Shown: positions 5,139 through 28,212 of the stretch, one piece after another
Position numbering within the stretch: the stretch's first letter is position 1
Layout: every line of letters starts with the position of its first letter
Source of the DNA: an uncultured Agathobacter sp.
GTDB lineage: Bacteria; Bacillota; Clostridia; Lachnospirales; Lachnospiraceae
DNA: 35,716 bases
Direction of reading: 5' to 3'
Assembly (NCBI GenBank): GCA_945910395.1
Contig: CAMDYX010000022.1
Span: forward strand, 1-35,716
Program-made: the position numbers and the translations under genes
Notes under the pieces: model-generated
Database searches by the model: none
The model's input: the letters and a program-made list of their open reading frames with translations, nothing else
Told to the model about the DNA's origin: nothing

Positions 5139-5949
5139 GGTGGCACCTCCTCTGGCGATTGCATTCATAGGTCAGAAGGGATGCCGCTATCGCCGCATTT
5201 AGGGACTCCACCTTTCCTTCCATGGGAATCCGGATATATTCACTGGCAAGATCTGCAATTTCTGTGGAAAGCCCGTTGCCCTCGTTCCCAATCAGAAAAC
5301 CGCAGGCTTTGGTATAATCCGGTTCATCATAAGACATGGTTCCCTTCAAATGTGCCGCATACAAGGACACACCTTCCCTCTTTACCTCTTCCACGGTTTC
5401 TTTCAAATCCTCCGCAATAAAAAACGGAATGCGGTATATGCTTCCCATGGTAGAGCGAATGGTCTTTGGATTAAAGAGATCCACGGTGGTCTGGTTCATA
5501 ATGATTCCGGTAATTCCGGCACCCTCTCCCGTTCGTATCATGGTGCCAAGATTGCCCGGATCCTGAATGCTTTCCAGCACAAGAAGCAGGGTTTTATCTC
5601 CCTTCAGCAGCTCAAAAAGCTCGTACCGTGGCATTTTTACTACAGCAAGGATTCCCTGAGGGGTCTGTGTATCGGATACGGTTTTAAACACCGAATCCGA
5701 TACCACCTCATATCGAACCGTTGCCTGTTCCCTTTGTGCCGCCGCAATGTAATCCTCAAGCCTTTTAAATTCCTTAACATCCTTATAAAAGCTTTCGGAT
5801 ATATAGATAGCATCCACCCATGAAAATGGCGCTTCCAGGCACATCTTGGGTCCCTCAACCACAAAAAGTCCCTGACTTTTCCGCTCCCTTGCCTTCTTCA
5901 TAAGCAGGGATAGGTTTTTCATCTGCTGGTTACTCGTACTGGTAATCAT
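5122..5949 (-). CDS. TrmH/SpoU-family RNA 2'-O-methyltransferase
   Basis: This family methylates ribose in rRNA or tRNA with S-adenosylmethionine. The 275-residue product has an N-terminal substrate-binding region (SpoU_sub_bind-like) with LFVVEGPKMCLEA, then the SPOUT knot domain: motif 1 as LESIQDPGNLGTMIRTGEGAG, motif 2 as GFLIGNEGNGLS and motif 3 as IRIPMEGKVESLNAAIAASLL. This order fits the YsgA-type group thought to act on 23S rRNA; the target nucleotide cannot be read. ATG 5949 is chosen for its GGAGAAGG site. It follows the pfkA terminator. Confidence 0.88.
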   Translation of the reverse strand: MITSTSNQQMKNLSLLMKKARERKSQGLFVVEGPKMCLEAPFSWVDAIYISESFYKDVKEFKRLEDYIAAAQREQATVRYEVVSDSVFKTVSDTQTPQGILAVVKMPRYELFELLKGDKTLLLVLESIQDPGNLGTMIRTGEGAGITGIIMNQTTVDLFNPKTIRSTMGSIYRIPFFIAEDLKETVEEVKREGVSLYAAHLKGTMSYDEPDYTKACGFLIGNEGNGLSTEIADLASEYIRIPMEGKVESLNAAIAASLLTYECNRQRRCHLADMV

Positions 5950-5968
5950 GAATCCTTCTCCTTCAAAA

Positions 5969-5998
5969 AAAGCTGCCACAGCATGATGTGGCAGCTTT
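5969..5998 (-). terminator. Rho-independent terminator after pfkA
   Basis: A perfect 12-bp stem (AAAGCTGCCACA and its complement) with a 6-base loop is followed on the minus strand by a run of T. It ends 12 bp after the pfkA stop codon and 20 bp before the methyltransferase start, so that gene depends on read-through or its own promoter. Confidence 0.88.
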
Positions 5999-6009
5999 TA
6001 CAGTTTCTA

Positions 6010-6981
6010 TTAAACAAGACTCTTGGAAATCTCGTACATGTATTCCGGAATATCCTTCTGCATTGCAAGAGCTTCATCGATATCATAATCCACGAAGTCT
6101 CCGTTCTTATGAGCAATTACGCGATTTGATTTTCCTTCACAGAGAAGTTTCACTGCCATCGCTCCCATCGTGGTTGCATATACACGATCCTTACAGGTTG
6201 GACTTCCACCACGCTGCATATGTCCAAGGATTGTTGCTCTTGTCTCGATTCCGGTAGCTTCTTCAATACGCTTTGCCATATTCTGGGAATCACCAACACC
6301 CTCAGCGTTGATGATGATGTAATGCTGCTTGCCCATATCATGTGCATGCTTTACCTGCTCGATCAGGCGGCTTTCATCATGATCATACTTTTCCGGAAGA
6401 AGAATCTCCTCTGCTCCGTTTGCAAGACCGCACCACAGTGCAATGTATCCGGCTCCACGTCCCATAACCTCAATGATGGAGCATCTCTCATGGGAGGTGG
6501 AAGTATCACGTACCTTATCAATCGCTTCCATTGCTGTATTACATGCTGTGTCAAAACCAATGGTATAATCTGTGCAGGAAATATCCAAATCGATTGTTCC
6601 AGGAAGACCTACCGTATTGATTCCAAGTGCAGCAAGCTTCTGGGCACCCTTGAAGGATCCGTCTCCACCGATAACTACAATTGCATCAATTCCATGCTTT
6701 CTGCAGATTTCAGCACCTCTTGCCTGACCCTCCGGAGTGGTAAATTCCAAGCAACGAGCAGTCTGTAAAACGGTGCCACCACGTGAAATGGTATCGGATA
6801 CACTCTTTGCATCCATATCAATGATTTCTTCGTTTAAAAGTCCTGCATATCCTCTTTTGATACCCTTTACCTTTTTACCTCTGTGAAGAGCCTCACGAAC
6901 AACCGCACGAATTGCAGCATTCATTCCCGGTGCGTCTCCACCGCTGGTAAGTACACCAATTGTATTGATTTCTTTTGCCAT
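6010..6981 (-). CDS. pfkA: ATP-dependent 6-phosphofructokinase
   Basis: The enzyme phosphorylates fructose 6-phosphate to fructose 1,6-bisphosphate, the committing step of glycolysis. The 323-residue length fits the bacterial homotetramer. Motifs include LTSGGDAPGMNAAIR at the N terminus, IGGDGSF (the Gly after GGD fits ATP rather than pyrophosphate use), and PGTIDLDISCTDYTIGFDTA holding the catalytic aspartate. The usual TIDND reads TIDLD here, a mild variation. EVMGRGAGYIAL and LGHMQRGGSPTCKDR for sugar binding are present. The start has AGGAGG upstream. It follows dnaE by 66 bp on the same strand, a common dnaE-pfkA order in Bacillota. Confidence 0.96.
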   Translation of the reverse strand: MAKEINTIGVLTSGGDAPGMNAAIRAVVREALHRGKKVKGIKRGYAGLLNEEIIDMDAKSVSDTISRGGTVLQTARCLEFTTPEGQARGAEICRKHGIDAIVVIGGDGSFKGAQKLAALGINTVGLPGTIDLDISCTDYTIGFDTACNTAMEAIDKVRDTSTSHERCSIIEVMGRGAGYIALWCGLANGAEEILLPEKYDHDESRLIEQVKHAHDMGKQHYIIINAEGVGDSQNMAKRIEEATGIETRATILGHMQRGGSPTCKDRVYATTMGAMAVKLLCEGKSNRVIAHKNGDFVDYDIDEALAMQKDIPEYMYEISKSLV

Positions 6982-7047
6982 TGCTATATCCTCCTGAATA
7001 TATCGTTAAATTTTTCTCAATCTAAGCCCTTGTATATTGTAAACTCT

Positions 7048-10000
7048 TTAAGCCTTGTTTTCAATATTCTTTTCCACACATTTTACATTTTTTTCGCCTA
7101 AAAAGTCATATAATTTTGCCAAAAGCTGCGGATTTGCATCTACGGTGTAATTTTTTCCGTATCGCTTTAAGGATTTTGGATTTGCAACATATACCACAAT
7201 CTCATCCATGCCGTCGGATTCCCTTAGTATCTCAAAAAGCTCCTGCTGCTTCTGCTGGAACTCATTCATTGTCGCAAACTGAAGCCAAAGCTCTTTGCAG
7301 GTTTCTTCAAAGGGAACGATTCTCTCACAAATGATTTTTCCATTCTGCTCATCCTCGATGGTAGCCCGTCCCACCACAAAAATTTTGTTGTCCATGGTAA
7401 GGGCATGCTGATATTTCTCGTAGGTCTTTGGAAAAACAATCACTTCCACGGAGCCCGTCATATCCTCAAGCTCAATAAAGGCCATTGCCTGATTATTCTT
7501 GGTAAACTTTACCGTCTTATCGGAGATCATACCACCTACAACCACCGTTGCATTGTCTAAAACCTTCACTGCACCGGTTTCTTCGTCTCTTATGAAATCC
7601 GTTGTGCTTGCAGTAACATTCTTTTGAATCTTCTGCGTATATTCCTCCAAGGGATGGCCGCTTAAATAAATTCCCAGCACTTCTTTTTCAAAGCCCAGCA
7701 GTACTTCCTTCTCAAACTCACCCACCGCAGGGTACTTTACCTCGAAGTCCTGACGATCTTCCTCCGGAACCAGATCAAACAGGCTCATCTGACCGGACAT
7801 CATGGATTTTTTCTGTGATGCGGTCTGATCAATGATGGTTGCATATACTGCCACCATCTGTTTTCTTGTTCCGTCTAAGCTGTCACATGCCCCCGCCTTG
7901 ATCAGGTTCTCAACAGCCCGCTTATTTACATCACGGTCCGTGGTTCTTTGAATAAAATCCTGCAGAGTTCTGTATGGACCACCCAGCTCTCGTTCCTCGA
8001 TAATTCGATCAATCACCGGTCTTCCAAGGGATTTGATGGCATAGAGACCATACCGGATATGATCCCCCTCTGCGGTAAACTCCCCCTGTCCCACATTGAT
8101 ATCCGGAGGAAGCACCTTGATTCCCATGATCTTACAATGATACAGATATTCCGATGCCTTCGCGGAGTTATCAATGACAGAAGTCATCAGCGCTGCCATA
8201 AACTCTACCGGATAATAGTATTTCAGCCATGCGGTCTGCATGCTGATAACTGCATAGGCCGCAGCATGAGATTTATTGAATGCATACTTTGCAAAGTCTA
8301 CCATGGAATCATAGATGCTGTTGGCAGCTTCTTCCGTAATACCGTTTGCAACACAGCCCTTGATGCCTCGTTCTTCATCCCCATATACAAAGCTTTTCCG
8401 CTCTGCGTCAATGACATACTGCTTTTTCTTACTCATGGCACGGCGGATATTGTCGGCCTGCCCCATGGTGTATCCCGCCAGCTTCTGCACGATCTGCATT
8501 ACCTGCTCCTGGTACACGATACAGCCATAGGTTGGCTCCAATATGCTTTTCAGCTCCGGAGTGACATAGGTGATGGCATCCTGATCATTTTTTCCTTTGA
8601 TATAGTTTGGAATAAAATCCATGGGACCCGGACGGTACAAAGAAATTCCGGCCACGATATCCTCAAAATTCTGAGGCTTTAATTCCTTCATGAAGTTCTG
8701 CATTCCGGAGGATTCTAACTGGAACACACCCTCTGTCTTTCCCGTTCCGATAAAATCAAGAACCGCCTTATCATTCATATCAATGTGGTCGATATCAATA
8801 TCCTTTCCGGTGGAGGTCTTGATATTTTTTACCGCATCCTTAAGCACAGTTAAGGTACGAAGACCAAGGAAGTCCATCTTAAGGAGTCCCAGTTCCTCAA
8901 GCTGGACCATGTTGTATTCTGCTGTTGGGCTTCCATCGTTTGCCCGGCCCAGAGGGACATAATCGCTTGCTATTCCGGGATAGATTACCACCCCGGCTGC
9001 ATGTACAGAGGTATGGTTCGGCAGTCCCTCCAGCTTCCTGCTCATGTCAATAAGATCATGAATCGCAGGATCACTTTCGTAGATGCCCCGAAGCTCCGGA
9101 TTCATCTGGAGTGCCCTATCAATTGTAATATTTAACTCCATCGGAACCATCTTTGCCAGCTGATCCATCTGGGAATAGGGAAAATCCAGGGCTTTTCCCA
9201 CCGCTTTAATGACTCCCCTTGCAGCCATGGTTCCAAAGGTAACAATCTGGGTTACGGAATCATGCCCGTATTTTTCCTGCACATACTCGATGGCCCGGTA
9301 GCGCTCTGCGTATTCGAAATCCACGTCGATATCCGGCATGGATACACGTTCCGGATTTAGGAAGCGCTCGAAAAGCAGACTGTATTTTACCGGATCAATA
9401 TTTGTGATTCCGGTACAGTAGCATACCCGGCTGCCCGCCGCAGAGCCTCGTCCCGGTCCTACCCAGCAGTCATGGTTTCTGCACCAGTTGATATAATCCC
9501 AGACAATCAGAATGTACTCTACGAATCCCATTTTTTTAATGATGCCAAGCTCATACTGCATCGCATCATAGATTTCCTTTTTCTGGCTTTCATCGTACTC
9601 CTCATTTGAGGTATATTTTTCCTTGAAGCCTTCCTCACAGAGGTGGTTTAAAAACTCCCATGCACTGGAAAAGCCTTCCGGCACCTGATACTTTGGAATC
9701 TTGTAATTGCCAAACTCAATCTCCACATGACAGCGGTCTGCTATTTTCTGGGTATTCTCTACTGCGGAAAGGGCATATGGGAAAAGAGCCTTCATCTCCT
9801 TCTCACTCTTTACGTAGTACTGTCCGCCATCGTAGCGCATGCGGTCCTCATCACTGACCTTTTTTCCGGTCTGGATACAAAGAAGCACATCGTGGGCTTC
9901 CACATCACTATCATAGGTATAGTGGCAGTCATTTGTGCAGACCAGCTCAATTCCCAGCTCCTCGCTCATACGCACAAGCTGCTGGTTTACCATCTGCTGT

Positions 10001-10545
10001 TCCGCAATTCCATGGTTCTGCAATTCCAAAAAGTAATTTTCTTTTCCAAAACAATCCTGATATTTTTTTGCCACCGCTTTTGCTTCTTCATAAAAGCCCC
10101 GGACAATATTTCTTGGAATTTCTCCGGCAAGGCAGGCGGAAAGACAGATTAAGCCCTCGTGATATTTTTCCAGTGTTTCAAAATCCACCCGCGGTCTGTA
10201 GTAATAGCCTTCTGTAAATCCAACAGATACGATCTTCATAAGATTGTCATATCCGGTATTGTTTTCTGCCAGAAGGATCAGATGGTAGTATCTGTCGTCC
10301 CCATGACTTGTCTCCCGGTCGAATCTGGAATTCGGTGCTACATACACTTCACATCCGATAATCGGATTGATTCCCGCCGCCTTTGCAGTCTTATAGAATT
10401 CAATCACGCCATACATATTGCCGTGGTCCGTGATGGCAGCACTATTCATCCCCAGCTCTTTTACCCGGGCAACATAATCCTTTATTTTATTGGAGCCATC
10501 CAGCAGGCTATACTCCGTATGGGTATGAAGATGTACAAAAGACAT
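7048..10545 (-). CDS. dnaE: DNA polymerase III subunit alpha (DnaE)
   Basis: This is the replicative DNA polymerase alpha subunit of the DnaE type; in Bacillota with PolC it usually extends primers on the lagging strand. The product is 1165 residues. The N-terminal PHP domain starts FVHLHTHTEYSLLDG. The palm has the catalytic MPDIDVDFEYAERYR motif and the GPGRGSAAGS motif before it. Later regions include the thumb/fingers (YQEQVMQIVQ, KYAFNKSHAAAYA), a helix-hairpin-helix region and an OB-fold near residues 990-1070 (VVVGGMISDK). ATG 10545 is chosen over a GTG at 10554 because AGGAG lies 8 bases upstream and the GTG falls next to that site. A half palindromic repeat lies in its leader. Confidence 0.96.
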   Translation of the reverse strand: MSFVHLHTHTEYSLLDGSNKIKDYVARVKELGMNSAAITDHGNMYGVIEFYKTAKAAGINPIIGCEVYVAPNSRFDRETSHGDDRYYHLILLAENNTGYDNLMKIVSVGFTEGYYYRPRVDFETLEKYHEGLICLSACLAGEIPRNIVRGFYEEAKAVAKKYQDCFGKENYFLELQNHGIAEQQMVNQQLVRMSEELGIELVCTNDCHYTYDSDVEAHDVLLCIQTGKKVSDEDRMRYDGGQYYVKSEKEMKALFPYALSAVENTQKIADRCHVEIEFGNYKIPKYQVPEGFSSAWEFLNHLCEEGFKEKYTSNEEYDESQKKEIYDAMQYELGIIKKMGFVEYILIVWDYINWCRNHDCWVGPGRGSAAGSRVCYCTGITNIDPVKYSLLFERFLNPERVSMPDIDVDFEYAERYRAIEYVQEKYGHDSVTQIVTFGTMAARGVIKAVGKALDFPYSQMDQLAKMVPMELNITIDRALQMNPELRGIYESDPAIHDLIDMSRKLEGLPNHTSVHAAGVVIYPGIASDYVPLGRANDGSPTAEYNMVQLEELGLLKMDFLGLRTLTVLKDAVKNIKTSTGKDIDIDHIDMNDKAVLDFIGTGKTEGVFQLESSGMQNFMKELKPQNFEDIVAGISLYRPGPMDFIPNYIKGKNDQDAITYVTPELKSILEPTYGCIVYQEQVMQIVQKLAGYTMGQADNIRRAMSKKKQYVIDAERKSFVYGDEERGIKGCVANGITEEAANSIYDSMVDFAKYAFNKSHAAAYAVISMQTAWLKYYYPVEFMAALMTSVIDNSAKASEYLYHCKIMGIKVLPPDINVGQGEFTAEGDHIRYGLYAIKSLGRPVIDRIIEERELGGPYRTLQDFIQRTTDRDVNKRAVENLIKAGACDSLDGTRKQMVAVYATIIDQTASQKKSMMSGQMSLFDLVPEEDRQDFEVKYPAVGEFEKEVLLGFEKEVLGIYLSGHPLEEYTQKIQKNVTASTTDFIRDEETGAVKVLDNATVVVGGMISDKTVKFTKNNQAMAFIELEDMTGSVEVIVFPKTYEKYQHALTMDNKIFVVGRATIEDEQNGKIICERIVPFEETCKELWLQFATMNEFQQKQQELFEILRESDGMDEIVVYVANPKSLKRYGKNYTVDANPQLLAKLYDFLGEKNVKCVEKNIENKA

Positions 10546-10597
10546 TTCGCGCACTCCTTGCAGTAATCAAAAAATAATCTTTATCTCCTGTTTCCAG

Positions 10598-10690
10598 ATT
10601 GCTCATTAAGTGCTGACGCTTTTTAAACGTTCTGATTTGGAATAGCAAAATTCATTTCAAAGCATCAATCTGAAATAGAAGTTTATTATA
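10598..10690 (-). promoter_or_regulatory. dnaE leader: -10 box and palindromic half repeat
   Basis: A TATAAT box (minus strand, 10685-10690) without a convincing -35 is the best promoter for dnaE. Between it and the gene, 10598-10677 is a half copy of the dispersed repeat (GCTCATTAAGTGCTGACGC and TAGCAAAATTCATT blocks), so the dnaE mRNA leader would carry it. Confidence 0.45.
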
Positions 10691-10751
10691 TCATTTTTTT
10701 TAATATTTGGATAGAGTAGGGATTGCTTTCTTCGCAGCAAATGCTATTACA

Positions 10752-10790
10752 AAAAAGGCGTCCCTCACCAACTTGCCGGGACGCCTTTTT
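10752..10790 (-). terminator. Rho-independent terminator after the 10809 gene
   Basis: A perfect 13-bp stem (AAAAAGGCGTCCC and its complement) encloses 13 bases, with T runs on both strands. It stands 18 bp after the stop codon of the gene at 10809-11414. Confidence 0.9.
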
Positions 10791-10808
10791 GTATGTTTTC
10801 TTAAATTT

Positions 10809-11414
10809 TTATTCTTCTTTTGATTTGTAGTAATCCTCAAACATCTGATTTGCAGCATCAATTGTTTTCTGGCAGATTTCCGGAAGCTCTTTTCCCCATG
10901 CTTTCGTAGCCTGCTTGAAGCCTTTCATCATGGCTTCCTGCATCTTTTTCATCTTCTCCACATCATCTCCTGCCAGCGCACTTGCAAAATCAAACAGTCT
11001 CTGAGAGGTCTGGGCTACACCGTAATAGCCGTTCTCAGATACATCTTCTTTTGCCTGTGCAATGGTTGCAGCGTCAACATTCTTTAAGTTCTCCGGAGAA
11101 AACAGACTGGAAAGATTCGATGCATTGGCCTGCTTTCCAAGCATTTCCTGTACCAGATTCGCCAGCTGCTGCTGTCTGGACTGCTGATCTGCCTTCATCT
11201 GTTCTACCAGTGCCGCCCGATCCTCAGCACTCATTTTATGGACGGAGTAAGTTGCTTTTTTGCTTTCGGCATTTTCAGAAGCCTTCTCGTATACAACTCC
11301 CGTTTCCTTTGCCTTACCGTTTTCCTTACTCTCTGTTTTTTCTGCTTTTGCAGCCGATTTATTGTAGGTACTGTATACCTCGGTTGCCGCATTCGTTACA
11401 TTATTTACGCTCAT
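10809..11414 (-). CDS. Hypothetical helical protein, Ala/Lys/Glu-rich
   Basis: The 201-residue product has no signal peptide or membrane helix. It begins MSVNNVTNAATEVYSTYNK, followed by a low-complexity Lys/Glu/Ala linker (about residues 20-60) and a mostly helical C-terminal part with KMKKMQEAMMKGFKQATKAWG. The Ser/Asn/Thr-rich start and central linker resemble small secreted or flagellum-associated proteins of Clostridia, but I do not recognise the family and give no function. ATG 11414 has AAGGAGGG upstream. A terminator follows, and a hairpin precedes it at 11471-11513. Confidence 0.75.
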   Translation of the reverse strand: MSVNNVTNAATEVYSTYNKSAAKAEKTESKENGKAKETGVVYEKASENAESKKATYSVHKMSAEDRAALVEQMKADQQSRQQQLANLVQEMLGKQANASNLSSLFSPENLKNVDAATIAQAKEDVSENGYYGVAQTSQRLFDFASALAGDDVEKMKKMQEAMMKGFKQATKAWGKELPEICQKTIDAANQMFEDYYKSKEE

Positions 11415-19655: not shown

Positions 19656-20924
19656 ATGGAACCTGGCGACATAGCATCGCTTATTGTATTAATCATTCTG
19701 TTGCTGCTCTCTGCCTTCTTTTCGTCGGCAGAGACAGCACTTACAACTGTGAACAAAATTCGTATGCGTACCCTGTCTGAGACCGGCAATAAAAAGGCGG
19801 ACAGGGTGCTTCGCGTTACAGAAGACTCCGGAAAAATGCTTTCAGCAATCCTGATTGGAAACAATATTGTCAATCTTTCCGCATCTTCCCTTGCTACCTC
19901 CCTTGCCATCAAGTATTTTGGCAGTGTGGGAGCCGGAATTGCTACCGGAATCCTTACGCTATTGATTCTAATCTTCGGAGAAGTAACACCTAAAACAAAA
20001 GCTACGATCCATGCCGATAAAATGTCCTTATCCTATGCATTTGTGATTGAGCTTCTGATGAAGGTGCTTACCCCTGTCATTTTTATCGTTAATAAGCTCT
20101 CCATGGCAATTCTGTTCCTTCTTCGGGTGGATCCGAAGGATAAGGATAAACAGATGACGGAGGAGGAGATTCGCACGATTGTCGATGTCGGTCAGGAGAC
20201 CGGTGTTATCGAAGATGAAGAACGGGATATGATTCACAATCTTTTTGATTTCGGAGATTCCGAAGCCAAAGAGATTATGGTTCCCCGAATTGATATGACC
20301 TTTGTTGAAAAAAATGCCAGCTATGAAGAAATCCTTGAGATCTTTCGAAAGGATAAATTTACCCGTCTTCCTGTATATGAAGAAACCACCGACCATGTCA
20401 TCGGTATTATCAATATGAAAGATCTTCTGCTGTGCGAAGACCCCGAGACCTTTACTATAGACAGCATTTTAAGGGAACCGTATTTTACATATGAGCACAA
20501 GAATACTGCAAATCTTTTCATTGAAATGCGCCAAAATTCCATTGCCCTTGCAATTGTTCTCGATGAATACGGAGTTACCGCAGGTCTTATTACTTTAGAG
20601 GACCTTCTTGAGGAAATCGTTGGTGAGATAAGAGATGAATACGATACAGACGAGGTGGATGATATCACTCGTTTAAGCGACCGCGAATTTCTCGTGTTAG
20701 GCTCTGCCAATCTTGACGATGTAAGTGATGAATTAGACTTCTCATTTACTTCTGAAAATTATGACACCATCGGTGGATACTGCCTGGATCACCTAGATCA
20801 TTTACCGGAAAAAAATGAGATCATCATAACAGACGAAAATGTTCTTCTTCGAATTGATCAGGTAGATAACAACCGTATTGAAAAAATATACATTAAGCTT
20901 CCTCCGGTTCCTACGGAAGATTAG
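19656..20924 (+). CDS. CNNM/CorC (HlyC) family membrane protein with CBS domains
   Basis: The 422-residue protein has an N-terminal DUF21 (CNNM) transmembrane domain: LLLSAFFSSAETALTTVN, ILIGNNIVNLSASSLATSLA and FGEVTPKT. A CBS pair follows (about residues 200-330: VPRIDMTFVEKNASYEEIL and ALAIVLDEYGVTAGLITLEDLLEEIVGEI), then a C-terminal CorC_HlyC domain (TIGGYCLDHLDHLPEKNE). Relatives bind ATP-Mg through the CBS pair and take part in Mg2+ export or resistance; the hemolysin label is historical. The substrate is not provable here. It converges on the Tad-like operon, its 3' end overlapping that operon's last gene by 14 bp. Confidence 0.9.
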   Translation: MEPGDIASLIVLIILLLLSAFFSSAETALTTVNKIRMRTLSETGNKKADRVLRVTEDSGKMLSAILIGNNIVNLSASSLATSLAIKYFGSVGAGIATGILTLLILIFGEVTPKTKATIHADKMSLSYAFVIELLMKVLTPVIFIVNKLSMAILFLLRVDPKDKDKQMTEEEIRTIVDVGQETGVIEDEERDMIHNLFDFGDSEAKEIMVPRIDMTFVEKNASYEEILEIFRKDKFTRLPVYEETTDHVIGIINMKDLLLCEDPETFTIDSILREPYFTYEHKNTANLFIEMRQNSIALAIVLDEYGVTAGLITLEDLLEEIVGEIRDEYDTDEVDDITRLSDREFLVLGSANLDDVSDELDFSFTSENYDTIGGYCLDHLDHLPEKNEIIITDENVLLRIDQVDNNRIEKIYIKLPPVPTED

Positions 20925-22728
20925 CTTTTTTTACAGACTCCCAAAGTGTTGTTCGATAGGTTTCGTCTAGCACCCATTGGGAGTCCTTTTTGATTCCCCC
21001 AAGTTCTTCCGGCACCAGGCCTTCCTCAGAAGAAAAATATGGCTCGTCCACAAACCGGATTTTTCCAAACACACTTCTTCCGCTGGTAATCGTCGTATCA
21101 ACAACATGAATCCAGGCCTCTTCTTCCACCCGGTTCCCCACATGATCGATTGCTTCATAGACGATTTTTACCTTATCGTCCCCCTCCATATTGCAAAACA
21201 CATCCGCATCATAATTTATAATGCAAAAGGAATTTCTGACATTGTATCCATAGGGAATATTCCCATCCTCCCGGTCCGTTACATAAGCACCCTTTGCAAG
21301 CTCTGATTCTGTAATTCTTCCCTCCCTTGCATCCAAAAGCGAGTAATAGAAATCTCCGGTATGAATCTCAGGTGCATAGTCCCAGATTGCATACAAAAGG
21401 ATTGTGGCACCATCCTGAAACAATACCCCGGCTTGTTTTGCAAGCACCTTCACCGCCACCTGCTGACGAATCAGATAATCCGGATCGAAGGCCTGGCTAT
21501 TATGTCCCCAGCCCAGATAGGTACAAATAGGAGCCGGCTTTGCAAAACCATTTTGCGGCATGGTAATCCCCTGCTCATAATTTGCTGTAATGGTGGGCAC
21601 ATTTCCGTAGGGCGCACCATTCCCGTGGAAAGCAACATGATAAGTATTTACTTCCCAGACCGCATACAGCGTCACTCTCGGATAGCGGTCATTGATCCAT
21701 TCAGAGGAAACCAAATGGCACAAATCATACTCCCCACGGCTTGCATTTGGATTTTCGGACCACCCGATCTGATGATACCCCTCTTTTGTATATCCAAGAT
21801 CTCCAAAATACTGGTTTGAGACACCGTAGGTATATTGCCTTGTCTGCGACATCGCATCCCCGGAAAAAGCATTCCGGCAGAAGGTAACCTCCGTTACCTT
21901 TGGCTTTCCATTTGCGATCAGTGTCACATTCCCATTGACATAAAAACCATAGCTTTCACTGTAAGAAACCATAGAGCCACTCCAATGGGAAAAAAGATAT
22001 CCCTTTGCAGGTACTGCATTTACTGCCACATAAGTTCCGTAGCAATATCTTCCTCCGCCCTCTGCCCTTGCAATTCCACTTCCGACACCTACCGAGACAT
22101 TATAAAAAAGTCCATCCACGGATTTATTAAAATAACTGTGCAAAGCCTCCTTTGATGCGGCGCTCCAGCCTGCCGCATTTGCGATTCCATCATAAGAAGT
22201 ATAAACCCTGCCGGAGGTTATTCCACTATCGTTCATCGTTCCCCCCGGTGAACCATTTGTCATCACTACCATGCAGGCATCCAGAACGATTGTGCAGCTT
22301 CCCTGATTCATCGCTGCGATAGCACTTCCGTTCATTCTCTGCTTTAAAGAGCTTAACTGCATTGCATAGAGATTGTAGATGCTATCTCCGTCTTGAACAG
22401 TGTTCACTGTACGCAGATAGTTTCCTCCCAACTGTACATAGAGGGATTGCAGCACTGCTCCGGAGCTGTTTACCACATTGATCTTCCATCCAATGGTTCT
22501 GTATTTTACTCCGGAGTTTGCCTCTACACCACGGGTTCCACAGTATATATATCCATCCGTCGAGGAGGTTCCCCGAAACACCGCACGGTTTCCATAGGTC
22601 TGATAATAATCATATGCGTTTTGCCAGCTATCTGCCAATATCGTATCTTTGCTTCCAAACAACAGCATAGCAAGAATACCTAACAAAAAGCATAGTAATC
22701 GCCCACAACGTTTTCTCCTTTTTTTCAA
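20911..22728 (-). CDS. Secreted InlB B-repeat protein, last gene of the Tad-like operon
   Basis: The 605-residue product has a clear signal peptide (basic KKRRKR start, hydrophobic LLCFLLGILAMLLFG, likely cleavage after ILA near residue 32). A beta-rich domain of about 240 residues follows (NRAVFRGTSSTDGYIYCGTRG). InlB B-repeat-like units follow (EVTFCRNAFSGDAMSQT to TLYAVW; YHVAFHGNGAPYGN with TYLGWGHNSQ to LLYAIW). The C-terminal part (about 455-605) contains an Ig-like segment (IVYEAIDHVGNRVEEEAWIHVVD). No sortase motif or C-terminal anchor is visible. The start is TTG with GGAGGAG upstream, 15 bp after the preceding gene. Its place suggests a substrate, tip adhesin or partner of the pilus-like machine (inference). 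Confidence 0.82.
   Translation of the reverse strand: MKKRRKRCGRLLCFLLGILAMLLFGSKDTILADSWQNAYDYYQTYGNRAVFRGTSSTDGYIYCGTRGVEANSGVKYRTIGWKINVVNSSGAVLQSLYVQLGGNYLRTVNTVQDGDSIYNLYAMQLSSLKQRMNGSAIAAMNQGSCTIVLDACMVVMTNGSPGGTMNDSGITSGRVYTSYDGIANAAGWSAASKEALHSYFNKSVDGLFYNVSVGVGSGIARAEGGGRYCYGTYVAVNAVPAKGYLFSHWSGSMVSYSESYGFYVNGNVTLIANGKPKVTEVTFCRNAFSGDAMSQTRQYTYGVSNQYFGDLGYTKEGYHQIGWSENPNASRGEYDLCHLVSSEWINDRYPRVTLYAVWEVNTYHVAFHGNGAPYGNVPTITANYEQGITMPQNGFAKPAPICTYLGWGHNSQAFDPDYLIRQQVAVKVLAKQAGVLFQDGATILLYAIWDYAPEIHTGDFYYSLLDAREGRITESELAKGAYVTDREDGNIPYGYNVRNSFCIINYDADVFCNMEGDDKVKIVYEAIDHVGNRVEEEAWIHVVDTTITSGRSVFGKIRFVDEPYFSSEEGLVPEELGGIKKDSQWVLDETYRTTLWESVKKANLP
20936..20985 (+). terminator. Probable terminator after the CorC-like gene
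   Basis: GACTCCCAA (20936-20944) pairs with TTGGGAGTC (20977-20985) and is followed by CTTTTT. The loop is long (32 bases) and the whole structure lies inside the last codons of the opposite-strand gene. A shorter TTTTTT run follows the stop codon itself. Confidence 0.5.
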
Positions 22729-22743
22729 TAGATACTTCTCCTC

Positions 22744-23127
22744 CTATTCCACAATGGCAGTTTTTGCATAATGCCAGCTTTTTTCCTTTCCTCCCGGCAG
22801 CATAAAGGTTTCATCCACCCGGACAGATAAGATTCCCATATCCATATCACAGGCAAGTACTGTGATGGAGTAATTGGAATCGGAACGCAGCCGTCTTTCG
22901 ATTTCCTCCGCAACTTCTTTTGTAACTTTTTCTTCCGATACCGGCTCATAATCCTGTTCTCTGAGTATTTTTGGCACATAGTAATTGTCTAATGTCTGCC
23001 ACACGATTTCCGACAAACAATTCTTCAGTTCATTCTTGTGGGTCTGAATAGAATAAATGCTGACAGAAATCATTATGGTATAGAAGAACATCAGTCCTCC
23101 AAATACTCCGATCATTACATTTTTCAT
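22744..23127 (-). CDS. TadE-like single-pass membrane protein
   Basis: The 127-residue protein has one N-terminal membrane helix (about residues 3-25, VMIGVFGGLMFFYTIMISVSIY) with no long leader, and an extracellular part beginning SIQTHKNELKNCLSEIVWQTLDNYY. This pattern is shared with the other TadE-like protein at 23829-24206 (helix, then a polar stretch, then a short beta-rich end). TadE and TadF are minor pilins. Its ATG overlaps the stop of the preceding gene by four bases (ATGA). Family assignment rests on topology and operon context rather than a strong motif. Confidence 0.6.
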   Translation of the reverse strand: MKNVMIGVFGGLMFFYTIMISVSIYSIQTHKNELKNCLSEIVWQTLDNYYVPKILREQDYEPVSEEKVTKEVAEEIERRLRSDSNYSITVLACDMDMGILSVRVDETFMLPGGKEKSWHYAKTAIVE

Positions 23128-23561
23128 ATGAATTTTCTTTGCACTGGAATCTTTAGTTTTCCATACTGTGTACGGCCAATCTGATCCACGGTCCTAAAAT
23201 ACACAGTATAGATCCCCGGTTTTCCAAACAAAAGCTCCTCCTTTCCCTCCCGTACTGTAGAATAAAGCCGATTTCCCTCCTCATCGAGTACCACGCAGAT
23301 TTGAAATTGTACTTTACCAGAATCCCCTAATGCTGCAAGAAAATGATCGTCAACAGCTTCTCTCTTTTGTTCGGTCATCGGCACATTTAAGTATTCCATA
23401 TCTACTTTCCCCTCGGATGCGTAGCTATGGAAAGCTCCTGTACACATCTTTGTCGACTCCAGATTTAGCGGAAATGCAATTCCGGTAAAAAACGGAATGA
23501 GAAAGCACGCTGCAAATACGGCAATGACCATGTCTCCATATTCGTTAAACAATTCTTTCAC
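23124..23561 (-). CDS. Pilin-like protein with EYG start and extracellular beta domain
   Basis: The 145-residue protein begins MKELFNEYGDMVIAVFAAC, nearly the same as the Flp-like small proteins of this operon, followed by one membrane helix to about residue 32. The remaining 110 residues are extracellular and beta-rich (VQFQICVVLDEEGNRLYSTV, then KPGIYTVYFRTVDQIGRT, close to Ig-like surface domains). The start is GTG with AGGAGG seven bases before it, and this ribosome site lies inside the end of the 48-residue gene. It could be a minor pilin or a capped pilin. No cleavage site with Gly before the helix is seen. Confidence 0.65.
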   Translation of the reverse strand: MKELFNEYGDMVIAVFAACFLIPFFTGIAFPLNLESTKMCTGAFHSYASEGKVDMEYLNVPMTEQKREAVDDHFLAALGDSGKVQFQICVVLDEEGNRLYSTVREGKEELLFGKPGIYTVYFRTVDQIGRTQYGKLKIPVQRKFI

Positions 23562-23708
23562 TCAGCATCCTCCTGCAATCCAAAATGCAACTAATCCTGC
23601 AAAATCAGAATCACATGCAAGAAGCAGCTTCTTAAAAAGCTCCAAAACTATGGTAAATCCTGACATTGACAAAATTGTACTCCCATAATTTAAAAATATA
23701 ACCTTCAT
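23562..23708 (-). CDS. Mini-pilin-like protein, 48 residues
   Basis: This gene reads MKVIFLNYGSTILSMSGFT, then a hydrophobic and amphipathic region and a Cys end. GGGAG precedes the ATG by seven bases, and the TGA stop leads directly into the GTG of the next gene. The MK-V-I-F-x-N-YG start matches its neighbours, where Flp pilins have E-Y-G, so it is counted as real despite its size. The C-terminal half (LLLACDSDFAGLVAFWIAGGC) may form a second hydrophobic segment. No function beyond pilin-like is claimed. Confidence 0.6.
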   Translation of the reverse strand: MKVIFLNYGSTILSMSGFTIVLELFKKLLLACDSDFAGLVAFWIAGGC

Positions 23709-23722
23709 TTTATTTCTCCCAT

Positions 23723-23821
23723 CTATATGAGGTCCAAGAGTATTTGCATCAGTTTAAGAATCACTCCTCCAACAAATATCAAAACCGCACAGACTCCATA
23801 TTCTTCTATTATTTGCTTCAT
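23723..23821 (-). CDS. Mini-pilin-like protein, 32 residues
   Basis: The whole protein is a start motif MKQIIEEYG followed by one hydrophobic helix (VCAVLIFVGGVILKLMQILL). It has an AGGAG site just before the ATG and sits 7 bp after the preceding gene and 14 bp before the next. It looks like a Flp pilin reduced to the helix, lacking both the leader and a C-terminal region. Good ribosome site and motif sharing with three neighbours support expression. Confidence 0.6.
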   Translation of the reverse strand: MKQIIEEYGVCAVLIFVGGVILKLMQILLDLI

Positions 23822-23828
23822 CTTTCTC

Positions 23829-24206
23829 CTATCGTGCGTAGGCGCACAGGCTCTTCCTCTCCTCATACTCATAAAACGCGAGCTGCAATGGAAATTGTAG
23901 CTCCACCTTTGCATAAACGACCTCCTCTGTATCAACCGGAATCTCATCCGCATTTTTACAGCATATACTGGTGTAGTCGCTCTGATACAGCGTAATCTCA
24001 AGGGAATATCCCCGATTTTGTGCAAGGGAAAAGCATTCCTTGATCACCTCTGGGTAAAAATCGCTGTTTTCCAGTTCATTGACCATATTTTGGTGTATAT
24101 CCTGGGCATCCGCCACCGTAAGAAAAGCCGACAGAATTCCTGCTGCTGCAAAGGTAATAGATAGGAGGATAAAAAGTCCCATATATGTTTTTATTATCTG
24201 ACTCAT
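23829..24206 (-). CDS. TadE-like minor pilin candidate
   Basis: The 125-residue protein begins MSQIIKTYMGLFILLSITFA, a short start like the mini-pilin MKQIIEEYG, with one helix to about residue 30. After it come DAQDIHQNMVNELENSDFYPEVI and a Cys-containing segment (SICCKNADEIPVDTEE). The architecture is that of TadE/TadF: a membrane helix and a small exported domain. ATG 24206 has AAAGGA seven bases upstream and follows the TadB/C gene by 14 bp. Confidence 0.65.
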   Translation of the reverse strand: MSQIIKTYMGLFILLSITFAAAGILSAFLTVADAQDIHQNMVNELENSDFYPEVIKECFSLAQNRGYSLEITLYQSDYTSICCKNADEIPVDTEEVVYAKVELQFPLQLAFYEYEERKSLCAYAR

Positions 24207-24220
24207 GGTGTGTTCCTTTC

Positions 24221-25606
24221 TCAAATCAAAGAGGAGGACAGGAAGCTTAACATAAAAACCGCCATGTCGATTACAAGCTTTAAGGAAGCTGTCACCACCG
24301 GCGCTAAAAACAGTAAGTACATTCCGCTGTTCTTATCCTTCATCCGCGCAGCCTCCGCCACATCCAGCATCTTCTGATTTTTTTCGATCAGTTCTGCAAT
24401 CTGACGCTTTGCGTTTCCGCTGTTTCCAATGGAAAGGGAATACAGCATGCTCATGGTGGAGGCCACCTCCGGCAGGGCAAAGACCTCTAAAAATCTGTGG
24501 TAAGGCTCTGCATCCTCCGGATTGATTTCCAATCGGGCAACCAGCTCCTCTAAATCTTCCTTCAGGACGCCCGGAACATGAGCTCGTGATTTTTCCAGTG
24601 CGACCTGCACATTCTCACTTTGCAGAAGCAGAACCAGATCCATTAACCAATTGGGAAAAGCACTTTGTATATTTCCTTTGATGTTCTTTTCTGCAATCCG
24701 GTATCCGATTCTATGCTGATTTAAAAAGATCAAGAAAAGTCCCATCATTCCTGCCGCCGCCCAGCTTTTGTGAAGAATCAGAAGTATGCCAACGATGATT
24801 CCCACTATTGCTGCAAGGATCACAGACAGCTTTTTCTCCTTTTTTTCATCATAGGCGTAAAAATCCTTGATTTTCTTTTCATAATCCACATCGTTTTCCA
24901 ATACATCTATGGTAAGCCAGTCGGTTTCCAGATATCTTTGAGCCTGCAGAATGATCAGATCATCCAAAAGGATCACAAGAACCGCTAAGAATTGTACGAT
25001 CCAGTTTTTGCTGATGTCCATATTTCCGATGGGAATATACAGCACCATTCCGCAAATCAAAAGAGATGCGCATACAGACATTACCACCTCCCGGAAGCTT
25101 TTCTTCCGCTCTTCCATGGCCTGCCGGATCCGCTTCTCATAGCTGTTTTTATCTGAAAGCAGCAAAAGAATGGTCTCTTCAATGGCCCCGCCGTAGGCTT
25201 CCACGTGCAGCATAAAATCGTGCATGCTTTTCAACCTCTTGCATGGATAACGTGCTTCTATCCCCGAAAGACCATCTGCGGTTGCATCTGAATTATCAAA
25301 GGTAAGTACCATATGATCATGGGCATCCCATGCCGCATCCCGCATACTTCCTTTGGGTAGAGACATACATACATCCGCCAGCGCCGCCTCTACCTTCTGT
25401 TCCCGCAAAAACGCATACAGCATGGTATCCATATAATTCATGACCTCAAAAAAACGGCTTTCCTGTTCTTTTTTCTTGCTCTGCTTTTTTCTATGCAAAG
25501 GATATACAAGCAGAAAAAAGACTCCAATCGCAATCGTCATATACCAGTTCAGTTTTAAAAGAAGGTGCAAAAAATACACCAGCACTACAATGCACAGGTA
25601 ACTCAT
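24221..25606 (-). CDS. Fused TadB-TadC-like inner-membrane platform protein
   Basis: TadB and TadC are GspF-type platform proteins that work with the TadA ATPase. Here one 461-residue protein shows two halves. The first has two N-terminal helices, a cytosolic helical region (MNYMDTMLYAFLREQKVEAALADVC to AYGGAIEETILLL) and two helices. The second has two helices, another GspF-like region (AFPNWLMDLVLLLQSENVQVALEKS to LYSLSIGNSGNAKRQIAELIEKNQ), and two C-terminal helices. That makes about eight helices. The start overlaps the ATPase stop by four bases (ATGA), with GGAGG upstream. Two separate genes are usual, so the fusion is notable. Confidence 0.75.
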   Translation of the reverse strand: MSYLCIVVLVYFLHLLLKLNWYMTIAIGVFFLLVYPLHRKKQSKKKEQESRFFEVMNYMDTMLYAFLREQKVEAALADVCMSLPKGSMRDAAWDAHDHMVLTFDNSDATADGLSGIEARYPCKRLKSMHDFMLHVEAYGGAIEETILLLLSDKNSYEKRIRQAMEERKKSFREVVMSVCASLLICGMVLYIPIGNMDISKNWIVQFLAVLVILLDDLIILQAQRYLETDWLTIDVLENDVDYEKKIKDFYAYDEKKEKKLSVILAAIVGIIVGILLILHKSWAAAGMMGLFLIFLNQHRIGYRIAEKNIKGNIQSAFPNWLMDLVLLLQSENVQVALEKSRAHVPGVLKEDLEELVARLEINPEDAEPYHRFLEVFALPEVASTMSMLYSLSIGNSGNAKRQIAELIEKNQKMLDVAEAARMKDKNSGMYLLFLAPVVTASLKLVIDMAVFMLSFLSSSLI

Positions 25607-26649
25607 TCTCCTACCTCCCTGCATACAAAGGGATTTTGGATGCCGGCCCGGACAAATCTTTTTTGCAGTTGTTCCGGAATCTGTTCTGGTATGAATTTCC
25701 CATCATTTACAACCATAATAATCTTATTTTGTCCGCCCTCCCTCAGATAAAAGCACACCTGATCGATGTAGCGGTAAAGCTTTCCATTTTCATCCTTTTT
25801 CTTGCGGATCAGCAGCCCCACATCCAAGGCCTGATAGATGTCATTTTCCATGCGGTCCGCATCTGTGCGGTTCTGCAGCATGCTTAAAATCCGGTCCGGG
25901 ACATTTCTTACATCATCGGTATGTAATGTGGTCATGCCTCTCACCCCGGTGGACCACCCCTCCAGCAGATACTTTACTTCCGTAGACCTTGCCTCCGACA
26001 GCATGATCCACTTAGGATTCAGCCTTAGACTGGACTTAATAGCCTTTGCATAGTCAAAGGTATCCTCGCTGACCTTCATCTCCACACAATCCTTTCCCGG
26101 ATTTGTTTTTGAATACCTAAGCTCCAACGTATCCTCGATGGTGATGACCCGCTCATTTGCCGGAATAAACTGGGAAAAAAACTTTGCGGATTCCGTCTTT
26201 CCAACCCCCGGCATCCCGCAAAAAATAAAATTCATTTTCGTTCGTACACAGTTGATCAGAAGTGATAGAATTTCCTTACTGCAAAAGTCTTCCGTAAGTG
26301 CCTTTTCTACTGTCATCCGTATAATTGGGGGTGTTTTCCTGATACTGATGGTACGGCCGGATTTTGCAACGGACTCATGCAGAATCGTCACCCGAAGCTC
26401 GCTGGTCTCAGCCTCAAGTTCCGGATTTCGCTTATTGAACTGAACGCTGACAAGATTTGCGATACGCTGTGTGAACTGCTCAATAAATGCCGGAGTCAGA
26501 TGCTCTTCCACAAACCCCGGATCAACCAGATATCTCTCATTGGCAGTATTCGTAAGCCAAACCTCGCTTCCGTTAAAATCGATATCCGTAATCTCCGGGT
26601 TCGATACAAACTGAAAAAGCGGACCAAAATATTCCTTACCAAGCTCCAT
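25603..26649 (-). CDS. CpaF/TadA-type pilus assembly ATPase
   Basis: This cytosolic hexameric ATPase powers pilus assembly. The 348-residue product has an N-terminal CpaF domain (ITDIDFNGSEVWL; RVTILHESVAKSGRTISIRK), Walker A GMPGVGKTES, an Asp box ITIEDTLELRY, a Walker B region NPKWIMLSEARSTE and a His box MTTLHTDDVRN with downstream arginines. This order matches TadA/CpaF rather than PilB/PilT; the long N-terminal extension of many CpaF proteins is absent. It starts 9 bp after the first mini-pilin and overlaps the TadB/C gene by four bases. No TadZ/CpaE localisation ATPase is present. Confidence 0.9.
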   Translation of the reverse strand: MELGKEYFGPLFQFVSNPEITDIDFNGSEVWLTNTANERYLVDPGFVEEHLTPAFIEQFTQRIANLVSVQFNKRNPELEAETSELRVTILHESVAKSGRTISIRKTPPIIRMTVEKALTEDFCSKEILSLLINCVRTKMNFIFCGMPGVGKTESAKFFSQFIPANERVITIEDTLELRYSKTNPGKDCVEMKVSEDTFDYAKAIKSSLRLNPKWIMLSEARSTEVKYLLEGWSTGVRGMTTLHTDDVRNVPDRILSMLQNRTDADRMENDIYQALDVGLLIRKKKDENGKLYRYIDQVCFYLREGGQNKIIMVVNDGKFIPEQIPEQLQKRFVRAGIQNPFVCREVGE

Positions 26650-26658
26650 GTCCCACCT

Positions 26659-26841
26659 CTACTCTCCGATTCCGATGCTGCTGTTGGCCCGGGCAACAAA
26701 GCTATCGATCAGTCCCTTAAAGGCGATGCCGATTGCTCCGTTCTCATCGCTCCCAATTACAGCAACCACTACTAAAATGACAGAAAGTATCGCAACTACG
26801 GTAATCAATATGCCGCCATATTCCTGAAAAATTTCTTTCAT
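26659..26841 (-). CDS. Flp-like small pilin, first gene of the operon
   Basis: The 60-residue protein begins MKEIFQEYGGILITVVAILS, has one long helix to about residue 31, then a short exported tail (SDENGAIGIAFKGLIDSF). The EYG followed by a hydrophobic helix is the mature N-terminal region of Flp pilins, where Glu is near position +5. Here it is preceded by only six residues instead of a leader ending in Gly. ATG 26841 is chosen for AAAGGAG; an in-frame ATG at 26886 lacks a site. As the first gene and the nearest to a classical Flp, it may be the major subunit. Confidence 0.75.
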   Translation of the reverse strand: MKEIFQEYGGILITVVAILSVILVVVAVIGSDENGAIGIAFKGLIDSFVARANSSIGIGE

Positions 26842-27024: not shown

Positions 27025-27052
27025 AAATAGTGCGCCATTTTGCGCGCTATTT
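27025..27052 (-). terminator. Terminator of the chemoreceptor gene
   Basis: An 11-bp stem (AAATAGCGCGC with GCGCACTATTT, one mismatch) with a 6-base loop includes the stop codon and is followed by TTTT on the minus strand. Confidence 0.85.
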
Positions 27053-27997
27053 ATTAAGTCCTGATTTTATATCTTCTATTTCATCCGTAACCTGGCCGAT
27101 ACATAATGTCAGTTCGTTCACCGATTCGGTAGCCTCTTCCGCCGCTGTTCGAATTGCCTCAATAGCTCTTGTGGAAGATTCCACCTGCTCCGTCAGATTC
27201 TTTGCCATGAAGGAGAAATCCTGCATCTTATCAAACATAATCTTGGAATCTCCCTGATACTTCCTTCCGACCTCCACAAGCTGTGTATAGCTTCCGATTG
27301 TTTTATCCTTCATAAACGAAACCACGTTTTGTGATTCCTCCGCCAGTCCGCTTACCGCGTTCACCACAATATTGGAAATATCGGTAATCTTGCTTGCAGT
27401 CTCTGAGGAATCCGCTGCCAGCTTCTTGATTTCATCAGCAACAACCGCAAATCCTTTTCCGTCATCTCCCGCATGTGCTGCCTCGATGGAAGCATTGAGA
27501 GCCAACAAATTGGTCTGATCTGCAATTTCCATGATATTGGCAGTCAGATCCATGATCTGTTCTGCCTGACGGGATTTTGCGATCTGCTCTTTTAAAGCGA
27601 TCTCCACCTCTTCTGCCCGCTTCTCCACTTCCTTGCGCTCAGCCTCCGAATCCACCATGATCCTATATGCATCCTCGTTGCTGTTCTGCGCGTAATCCGA
27701 TCCATCCTGGGACTCTTCGCTCATTCCAAGAAAGGATTCCTCCATGGATTCCATCACTTCCGAAATCTCACCGATATTCTTCGTCATTTGAAGAAGTGAG
27801 GTATTCACCTCCCCCATCATTCCGGAAAGCGAAGCAATTTCATCATAGACCCCACAAATTCGTGCTTCCAGTCCATCCAACAGCTCTGCCAATTCCTCTG
27901 CTGTCTGTTTTGCGGCCAGAAGCTCTTCGCTTGCTTCGATGCCCGGTGCCTCATTTACAGGATTTCCATTTCCCTTTTTAAAAAATGCTTTCCCCAT
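27047..27997 (-). CDS. Soluble methyl-accepting chemotaxis-type signalling protein
   Basis: The 316-residue protein has the conserved signalling hairpin of chemoreceptors, [19 protein letters not shown] then [15 protein letters not shown] (about residues 163-200), between long coiled-coil helices. No membrane helix or recognised sensor domain is present; the first 40 residues are basic and Gly/Asn-rich. ATG 27997 is preferred over the ATGs at 28015 and 28144 because GAGG lies six bases upstream and the longer N terminus would cover the promoter and repeat. No che genes are nearby. It stands just upstream of the Tad-like operon but has its own terminator, so a link is uncertain. Confidence 0.88.
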
Positions 27998-28091
27998 ACA
28001 TTTCCTCTTTATCATTAATCTGCTCCCTTTTCGGAATTGTGTTCCCGAAATGGAATTAAATTTGTGTAGTTTCGAACACACTAATACATTT

Positions 28092-28119
28092 ATTATAACA
28101 AACGTAAAATATTTGTAAA
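28092..28119 (-). promoter_or_regulatory. Sigma-A-type promoter for the chemoreceptor
   Basis: On the minus strand TTTACA (28114-28119), 16 bases and a perfect TATAAT (28092-28097). Between it and the gene lies a fragment of the dispersed repeat (GAACACAATTCCG near 28030-28052). Confidence 0.6.
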
Positions 28120-28140
28120 TCTTTCTTTTCAAGCAAAAAG

Positions 28141-28212
28141 GCACTTAATGAGCAATTACCTACGAATTTAGTACCGTTACGCTTTTTACAAACGAGAGTG
28201 GGTTCTGATTCA
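28141..28212. repeat. Dispersed palindromic repeat, middle-to-right part
   Basis: Directly repeats 970-1041 with few changes (GCACTTAATGAGCAATT, GAATTTAGTACCG, ACGCTTTTTACAAACGAGAG). It opens a stretch of about 500 bp (28145-28647) without a gene that also holds the elements described next. Confidence 0.85.

Follow-up and report, generated by a model that had tools for sequence, protein, structure and literature searches.

The question raised by a compact operon of an uncultured Agathobacter sp. (Lachnospiraceae) is which machine it encodes and by what route the subunits of that machine are matured. The operon lies on the minus strand at positions 20911–26841 of contig CAMDYX010000022.1 (assembly GCA_945910395.1), the whole 35,716 nucleotides of which, hereafter the window, were analyzed. 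Its nine open reading frames (ORFs), g1 to g9 from first to last, are separated by 0 to 15 bp or overlap by 4 bp, and these coordinates bear out the nine tightly packed genes reported in a preliminary description made from the sequence alone. That description had proposed a slim machine of the type IVc (Tad) kind that exports or assembles its subunits by an altered route. Our analysis likewise supports a slim, conserved machine that is separate from the classic Tad system. On balance, we favor a divergent member of the type IV filament superfamily, additional to the classic Tad system of this genome and nearest to Tad (IVc), which would build a pilus or pseudopilus from subunits matured in trans. 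Such a machine probably operates like a Tad system, but, by the sequence-based tests used here, the locus is not a standard Tad locus.

Platform and ATPase

By profile comparison, g3 is an integral platform protein of the PilC/GspF/TadB type, in which TadB/TadC-like halves are fused. In hhalign comparisons, the N-terminal half scored 88% against a TadB-seeded profile, and the C-terminal half scored 87% against the TadB-seeded and 83% against a TadC-seeded profile; two membrane families used as controls scored 0.1 to 0.2%. The two profiles (80 and 79 rows) come from the same 42 loci and must each contain both proteins, and the assignment of either half as TadB-like or TadC-like therefore relies on gene order in a sister operon of Erysipelotrichaceae, which has separate TadB- and TadC-like genes. 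These separate platform proteins scored 99.1% and 99.5% against g3 and 91% and 95% against the TadB- and TadC-seeded profiles, and the fact that they are separate suggests a secondary fusion in g3. Both proteins expected of a Tad platform are present in the window, but as halves of one protein; the TadB/TadC platform of the preliminary description was right in kind, and wrong in being read as a single TadB/TadC protein. An AlphaFold (AF2) model of g3 was all-helical and confident (predicted local distance difference test score, 86.8), and a PDB search with the g3 profile returned nothing useful. Compared with the platforms of type II secretion and type IVa pili (GspF and PilC), the g3 sequence sides with TadB/TadC.

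The ATPase g2 matched the Pfam family PF00437 (T2SSE, 2.1e-19). Against the NCBIfam models, it scored 3.7e-28 for VirB11 (98.4 bits, under the cut-off of 249.95) and 6.6e-22 for TadA (78.2 bits, under the cut-off of 373.15), and its profile matched VirB11-like chains (1.5e-23) and CpaF (1e-18) in the PDB, so that its likeness to VirB11 ATPases equals its likeness to TadA. In quick maximum-likelihood trees, with long branches and an uncertain root, 47 operon ATPases of the 58 loci described below (SH-aLRT 95, or 92 without PilT) were separated by a branch from 44 CpaF-type ATPases (SH-aLRT 99 and 97), which places g2 outside the TadA/CpaF clade. The preliminary description had called g2 a CpaF/TadA ATPase; it is a secretion ATPase and, in these trees, belongs to a separate group beside CpaF. 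As judged from these scores, the ATPase by itself cannot tell Tad from VirB11, and g3 is the more decisive component.

The VirB11 scores in NCBIfam and the PDB could also suit a conjugation (type IV secretion) module. We regard this reading as barely credible: the VirB11 match stays under its cut-off, the operon has a TadB/TadC-like platform, and, unlike in VirB11 type IV secretion, no other such component (VirB4, VirD4, a coupling protein or a relaxase) was recognized in the window operon from its ORF list and Pfam matches, mobile-element genes around the relatives' operons not having been searched for.

Conservation, selection and a sister operon

The operon is kept in many relatives, as shown by the neighborhood comparison across Lachnospiraceae that the preliminary description had proposed. 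The comparison covered 58 loci, namely, the window, 20 further stretches and L062 to L098; one organism contributed both L057 and L058, and another both L067 and L068. Gene content was similar in the loci read, and gene order was altered in some (e.g., L078 and L084). An alignment scan with the ATPase, considered for the best 80 of at least 568 relatives, gave at least 33 loci with 44 to 72% identity labeled Lachnospiraceae, Clostridiales or single genera; loci of Lachnobacterium bovis, Roseburia hominis and Lactonifactor longoviformis were among the matches listed. At least four Erysipelotrichaceae-type loci followed at 37 to 40% identity, beyond which the matches listed dropped to ATPases of 33% identity or less (E-value of 3e-27 or weaker). 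A relative of g3 was present in the genome of the window; of 35 other genomes of the genus, 30 had one, and the five with no match (G009, G020, G021, G032 and G033) had completeness values of 68 to 99%. The g3 profile matched 26 of 200 genomes from across the family, own genome included, and no g3 relative was found in 24 genomes from other families of the same order.

The small genes are also well kept. Hidden Markov models (HMMs; E-value up to 0.01, with paralogues cross-matching) found g1 in 55, g4 in 56, g5 in 52, g6 in 56, g7 in 54 and g8 in 53 of the 58 loci. The ratio of nonsynonymous to synonymous substitution rates (dN/dS) was 0.01 to 0.62 and below 1 in every computable pair, many pairs being saturated or lacking a copy; the g7 set (n = 42) includes some other proteins (L063:11751, L067:4383, L082:11707 and L093:3692), and the seed sets for g4 and g8 include a few strangers (e.g., L089:12073 and L096:7693). 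By eye, Shine-Dalgarno-like sequences precede the g1 start, and they do so even in L064, L065, L069, L072 and L092, where the start is GTG or TTG (L043 was misaligned in this comparison of starts). The small genes thus look real. A decayed, non-functional tad relic might account for the short ATPase, the tiny subunits and the lack of a peptidase gene in the operon, but conserved small genes, dN/dS below 1 and ribosome-binding sequences together make it very improbable. Moreover, similar gene sets recur in many relatives, and g2 retains what we take to be the Walker A motif, Asp box, Walker B Glu and His box.

The Erysipelotrichaceae sister operon also encodes an RcpC/CpaB-like protein, which in L095 matched PF16976 at 1.7e-4 (under the cut-off) and SAF at 2.9e-4 (over the cut-off). 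Homologues of this protein occur in all four Erysipelotrichaceae loci, and a subunit beginning with MKAFFEEYG in three of the four, L097 being incomplete. In L057, the operon itself carries an Flp1_like gene (Pfam, 1.3e-9; local HMM, 8.9e-12). Taken together, the platform halves, the RcpC/CpaB-type protein and the L057 gene tie the system to Tad. The extra Flp1_like gene of L057 (5738–5956; also seen in L176) has no Gly or Ala at position −1 and may start as a two-helix protein.

Small subunits and their possible maturation

The N-terminus shared by g1, g5, g6 and g7 reads MKxIxxEYG and is followed by a hydrophobic helix. In hhalign comparisons, g1, g5, g6 and the N-terminal part of g7 were paralogues (96–98%). 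The four small or pilin-like proteins of the preliminary description are therefore present and conserved but, as paralogues, not unrelated to one another. In L066, g1 occurs in two tandem copies upstream of the ATPase gene. The g7-like protein of L. longoviformis (L078, 10679–11770) is 364 amino acids long and matched a BspA-type leucine-rich repeat at 7.8e-4, below the cut-off, which suggests that the head domain of g7-like proteins has been exchanged. The N-terminus of g4 is related to that of g8 (hhalign 93.9%); g4 had no Pfam match even at an E-value of 10, and several g8 relatives are longer, with a tail resembling the InlB repeat by eye.

Whether these subunits carry a cleavable leader depends on the rule applied. 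Under a strict G-x4-[DE] rule (residues 5 to 30, with a hydrophobic run required behind the site), the window copies have no site, and none was found in 47 g1, 42 g5, 47 g4 and 40 g8 sequences; sites occurred in 7 of 53 g6 and 7 of 42 g7 sequences, and all 14 (of 184 copies of g1, g5, g6 and g7) were at Gly9. In an excerpt of PMC10191384, the class III leader is defined more broadly as a hydrophilic segment ending in Gly or Ala and followed by 20 to 25 mainly hydrophobic residues, with Glu5 frequent but not invariable. In the window copies of g1, g5, g6 and g7, the change from hydrophilic to hydrophobic residues falls at Gly9, and among the 175 copies with an aromatic residue at position 8, residue 9 was Gly in 159, Ala in six, Ser in four, Leu in four, Thr in one and Phe in one. 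Arguably, most copies fit this broader definition with a leader closing at Gly9. The preliminary description, which saw no leader-type site, was correct for the strict rule and the window copies but missed the boundary at Gly9. In addition, hhalign set the EEYG of g5 and g6 over the EEDG that closes the leader of classic Flp, although the probabilities were low (0.7% and 30%, respectively).

Our first idea was that EYG corresponds to residues +5 to +7 of mature Flp, so that the subunits would be leaderless, retain Met1 and be assembled unprocessed by g2 and g3. Several observations agree with this. EYG and the following hydrophobic run resemble the end of mature Flp, for which an excerpt of PMC3244431 gives Glu or Asp at +5 and Tyr at +6. 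The aromatic residue at position 8 is present by construction in the g1, g5 and g6 sets, which were registered on an aromatic-like residue there, but an unforced count from the best-scoring start also found it in 46 of 48 g1, 40 of 45 g5 and 47 of 53 g6 sequences (three g1 and six g5 rows with no such aromatic were omitted, and g7 was not judged, 43 of its 51 rows being out of register). Gly never stood six residues before the aromatic in 146 copies, and Ala did so once. Pro at residue 10 in some g1 copies and the in-operon L057 gene, which has neither Gly nor Ala at −1, point the same way. By this register, however, residues 3 and 6, which are charged in 30 and 34 of 47 g1 sequences, would become +1 and +4, whereas 21 classic mature Flp proteins had one charged residue in 84 positions from +1 to +4. 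Gly9 is also at the boundary in the large majority of copies, and every complete strict site is at Gly9. On these comparisons of register, charge and strict sites, we demoted peptidase-free assembly to a serious but distinctly less probable alternative. A wider version of it, in which a family across Lachnospiraceae and Erysipelotrichaceae combines leaderless subunits of 32 to 60 residues lacking Glu5, peptidase-independent assembly and a re-fused TadB–TadC platform, is more doubtful still. We favor, but are not sure of, cleavage after Gly9 by a peptidase that is encoded elsewhere.

Such a peptidase is available in the same genome. The preliminary description had argued from the lack of a prepilin peptidase (TadV) and TadZ; neither was seen among the ORFs and Pfam matches of the operon, but the argument is not supported in that form, because a TadV peptidase and a TadZ-like protein occur in a complete classic tad locus on another contig (C34). 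This locus comprises an A24 peptidase (TadV, 6.1e-14), CpaF, TadC, TadB (under the cut-off), Flp1_like (3.8e-25), two TadE proteins (one under the cut-off), DUF5702, an FHA protein and a TadZ-like receiver domain (7.9e-6; 26.6 bits, just under the cut-off of 27.4). The genome has two A24 matches, both on C34, so that TadV is found only in this separate locus and not in or near the operon. A classic flp-tadV-tadZ set, the first half of a refuting finding named in the preliminary description, exists, and it might process the operon proteins. The altered route proposed earlier loses the support it drew from an absent peptidase and TadZ, and the published definition accommodates a relaxed leader that closes at Gly9. 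Flp1_like proteins were found in all 20 genomes searched, and among their 23 matches the residue at −1 was Gly in 18 and Ala in four, the remaining one being the in-operon L057 gene. The A24 peptidase was found in 35 of 35 genomes of the genus, in all 36 locus-bearing genomes and in each of the 25 further carriers, sets that overlap and in which several genomes stand under two handles. Type IV filament systems are known to exchange peptidases, and all MSH loci lack one, according to an excerpt of PMC6668835.

A candidate for TadZ near the operon was considered and set aside. Related ORFs with the look of a degenerate P-loop lie upstream of g1 in L055, L056, L059 and L076 (187 to 216 amino acids in these four) and farther upstream in L085 (1.2e-11) and L088 (1.7e-11), that is, in 6 of 58 loci; there was no match upstream of the window operon. 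A four-row profile of this ORF scored only 13% over 27 columns against classic TadZ, its PDB search gave one unrelated chain at an E-value of 1, and the L055 copy matched no Pfam family at the same E-value; we do not call it TadZ.

A number of results weigh against a Tad-like machine matured in trans. The platform type is questioned by g3 itself, which reached Pfam T2SSF only at an E-value of 0.5; its model had no Foldseek match at an E-value of 0.001, and in VIA-align the PilC model tied with unrelated helical proteins. The ATPase scored as high for VirB11 as for TadA. The profile check against Flp and TadE families that the preliminary description had suggested gave a mixed outcome: g1 scored only 44% against classic Flp with hhalign, and its mature part 10%, compared with 11.5% for g8, and g4 and g8 of the window fit no TadE model in Pfam and are TadE-like in layout only. 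Pfam matches of 21 g1 copies were mostly unrelated, the best being FAM210 (0.0029); Flp1_like (0.045) and Flp_Fap (0.33) each appeared in one copy and were weaker. For cleavage, Asp or Glu at +5 is missing in 170 of the 184 copies, Pro at residue 10 would make a poor scissile bond in 9 of 47 g1 sequences, and hhalign set g1 one residue out of the Gly9 register. Finally, the A24 peptidase was found in 199 of 200 genomes of the family, and its coexistence with the operon is therefore no evidence of use; we discarded co-occurrence as support.

Possible function and surroundings of the operon

In the Tad-like machine that we favor, a g2 hexamer would turn on the fused platform g3 and thereby draw the single-helix subunits of the g1/g5/g6 family out of the lipid bilayer to form a thin pilus or a short pseudopilus, with g7 and the TadE-like pair g4/g8 as minor subunits. 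TadV of the co-resident classic locus would act in trans and cut after Gly9 of MKxIxxEYG, and Sec-exported g9 would be borne at or near the tip for adhesion. The large secreted protein of the preliminary description stands: the N-terminus of g9 reads as a Sec-type signal (by eye, with no predictor), and its sole Pfam match is a divergent InlB B-repeat (PF18998, 3.6e-8). With g2, it is one of only two of the nine window proteins to match Pfam over the cut-off.

Instead of an adhesive pilus, the operon might encode a pseudopilus, similar to that of type II secretion, that secretes or releases g9 and related InlB-repeat proteins. The tiny subunits would suit such a role, as would a g9 that looks Sec-exported and whose last 60 residues contain no LPxTG-like motif; sequence similar to g9 is found near the operon in many relatives (N-terminal part in 19 and C-terminal part in 25 of the 58 loci, window included). 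Against this, the hosts are presumably monoderm, with no outer membrane to cross, and the remaining loci have no g9-like match, although some end at a contig edge. We consider this alternative unlikely. A pilus for DNA uptake (competence) is quite improbable: Flp-type machines of Actinobacteria can have a role in transformation (PMC4322843, in excerpt), the genes are those of a type IV filament machine with small subunits, and the adhesive role is only proposed, but no DNA-receptor or uptake gene was recognized in the operon, the rest of the genome not having been searched.

The operon resembles the classic Lachnospiraceae Tad system, exemplified by the C34 locus, in its TadA-type ATPase, TadB/TadC-like platform, one-helix small subunits and TadE-like minor subunits and, in the Erysipelotrichaceae sister operon, the RcpC/CpaB-like protein. 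It differs in its fused platform, an ATPase group apart from CpaF, the lack of its own TadV and TadZ, several paralogous subunits of 32 to 60 amino acids that mostly lack Glu+5, a leader (if any) of nine rather than mostly 13 residues, the predicted immunoglobulin (Ig)-like head of g7 and the InlB-repeat protein g9. The MSH (MSHA) pilus is comparable in that its locus has no prepilin peptidase and is presumed to borrow that of another system; it belongs to another branch of the superfamily, found in Proteobacteria and a small number of other groups (PMC6668835, in the excerpt cited above). Among the titles and opening lines of abstracts in the open-access papers searched, we recognized no description of such a second system in Lachnospiraceae. 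If the second system is real, two Tad-type machines would coexist in many gut Lachnospiraceae, and standard models scarcely recognize one of them. With subunits that are near-minimal and usually have no Glu5, that machine would be a natural system in which to ask what a type IV pilin requires to be processed and assembled; the assembly of unprocessed subunits, if true, would be a striking claim. Comparison of the fused platform with the separate sister genes may reveal how platform proteins come to be divided or joined, and a conserved surface machine in gut commensals would bear on attachment to mucus, to fiber and to each other.

Table 1. Genes of the operon and adjoining ORFs in the window. 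A slash marks the boundary after residue 9.
Feature	Position	Strand	Length (amino acids)	Description
g1	26659..26841	−	60	First gene of the operon; MKEIFQEYG/GILITVV...; one predicted transmembrane helix and a short tail; putative Flp-like small subunit
g2	25603..26649	−	348	VirB11/TadA-type secretion ATPase
g3	24221..25606	−	461	Platform; two TadB/TadC-like halves, fused
g4	23829..24206	−	125	TadE-like layout: transmembrane helix and small head
g5	23723..23821	−	32	MKQIIEEYG/VCAVLIF...; minimal subunit
g6	23562..23708	−	48	MKVIFLNYG/STILSM...; minimal subunit
g7	23124..23561	−	145	GTG start; MKELFNEYG/DMVIAV...; N-terminal helix and predicted Ig-like head
g8	22744..23127	−	127	Other member of the TadE-like pair
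g9	20911..22728	−	605	TTG start; divergent InlB B-repeat; last gene of the operon
Convergent ORF	19656..20924			Shares 14 bp with the end of g9
Chemoreceptor gene	27047..28144	−		Directly upstream of the operon; soluble methyl-accepting chemotaxis protein (PF00015, 5.8e-27)

An Rfam search of the window gave no RNA or riboswitch above the gathering score. Two other clusters were seen in the same genome. On contig C70 (L061, approximately 5727–11150), a region resembling a mobile element has a relaxase-like ORF (by eye), a VirB11-class ATPase and a 159-amino acid protein that resembles a degenerate A24 peptidase (GSGDND motif), to which the Pfam A24 search gave no match. On contig C24 (L060, approximately 6890–10750), a PilT-like ATPase, a platform-like protein and proteins with an N-terminal helix (by eye, with a T2SSE match) form a cluster that is possibly a third type IV filament system. 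ORFs resembling the chemoreceptor gene are also found upstream of the operon in L042 and L052 (by eye), and the chemoreceptor might act as a sensor or regulator of the machine.

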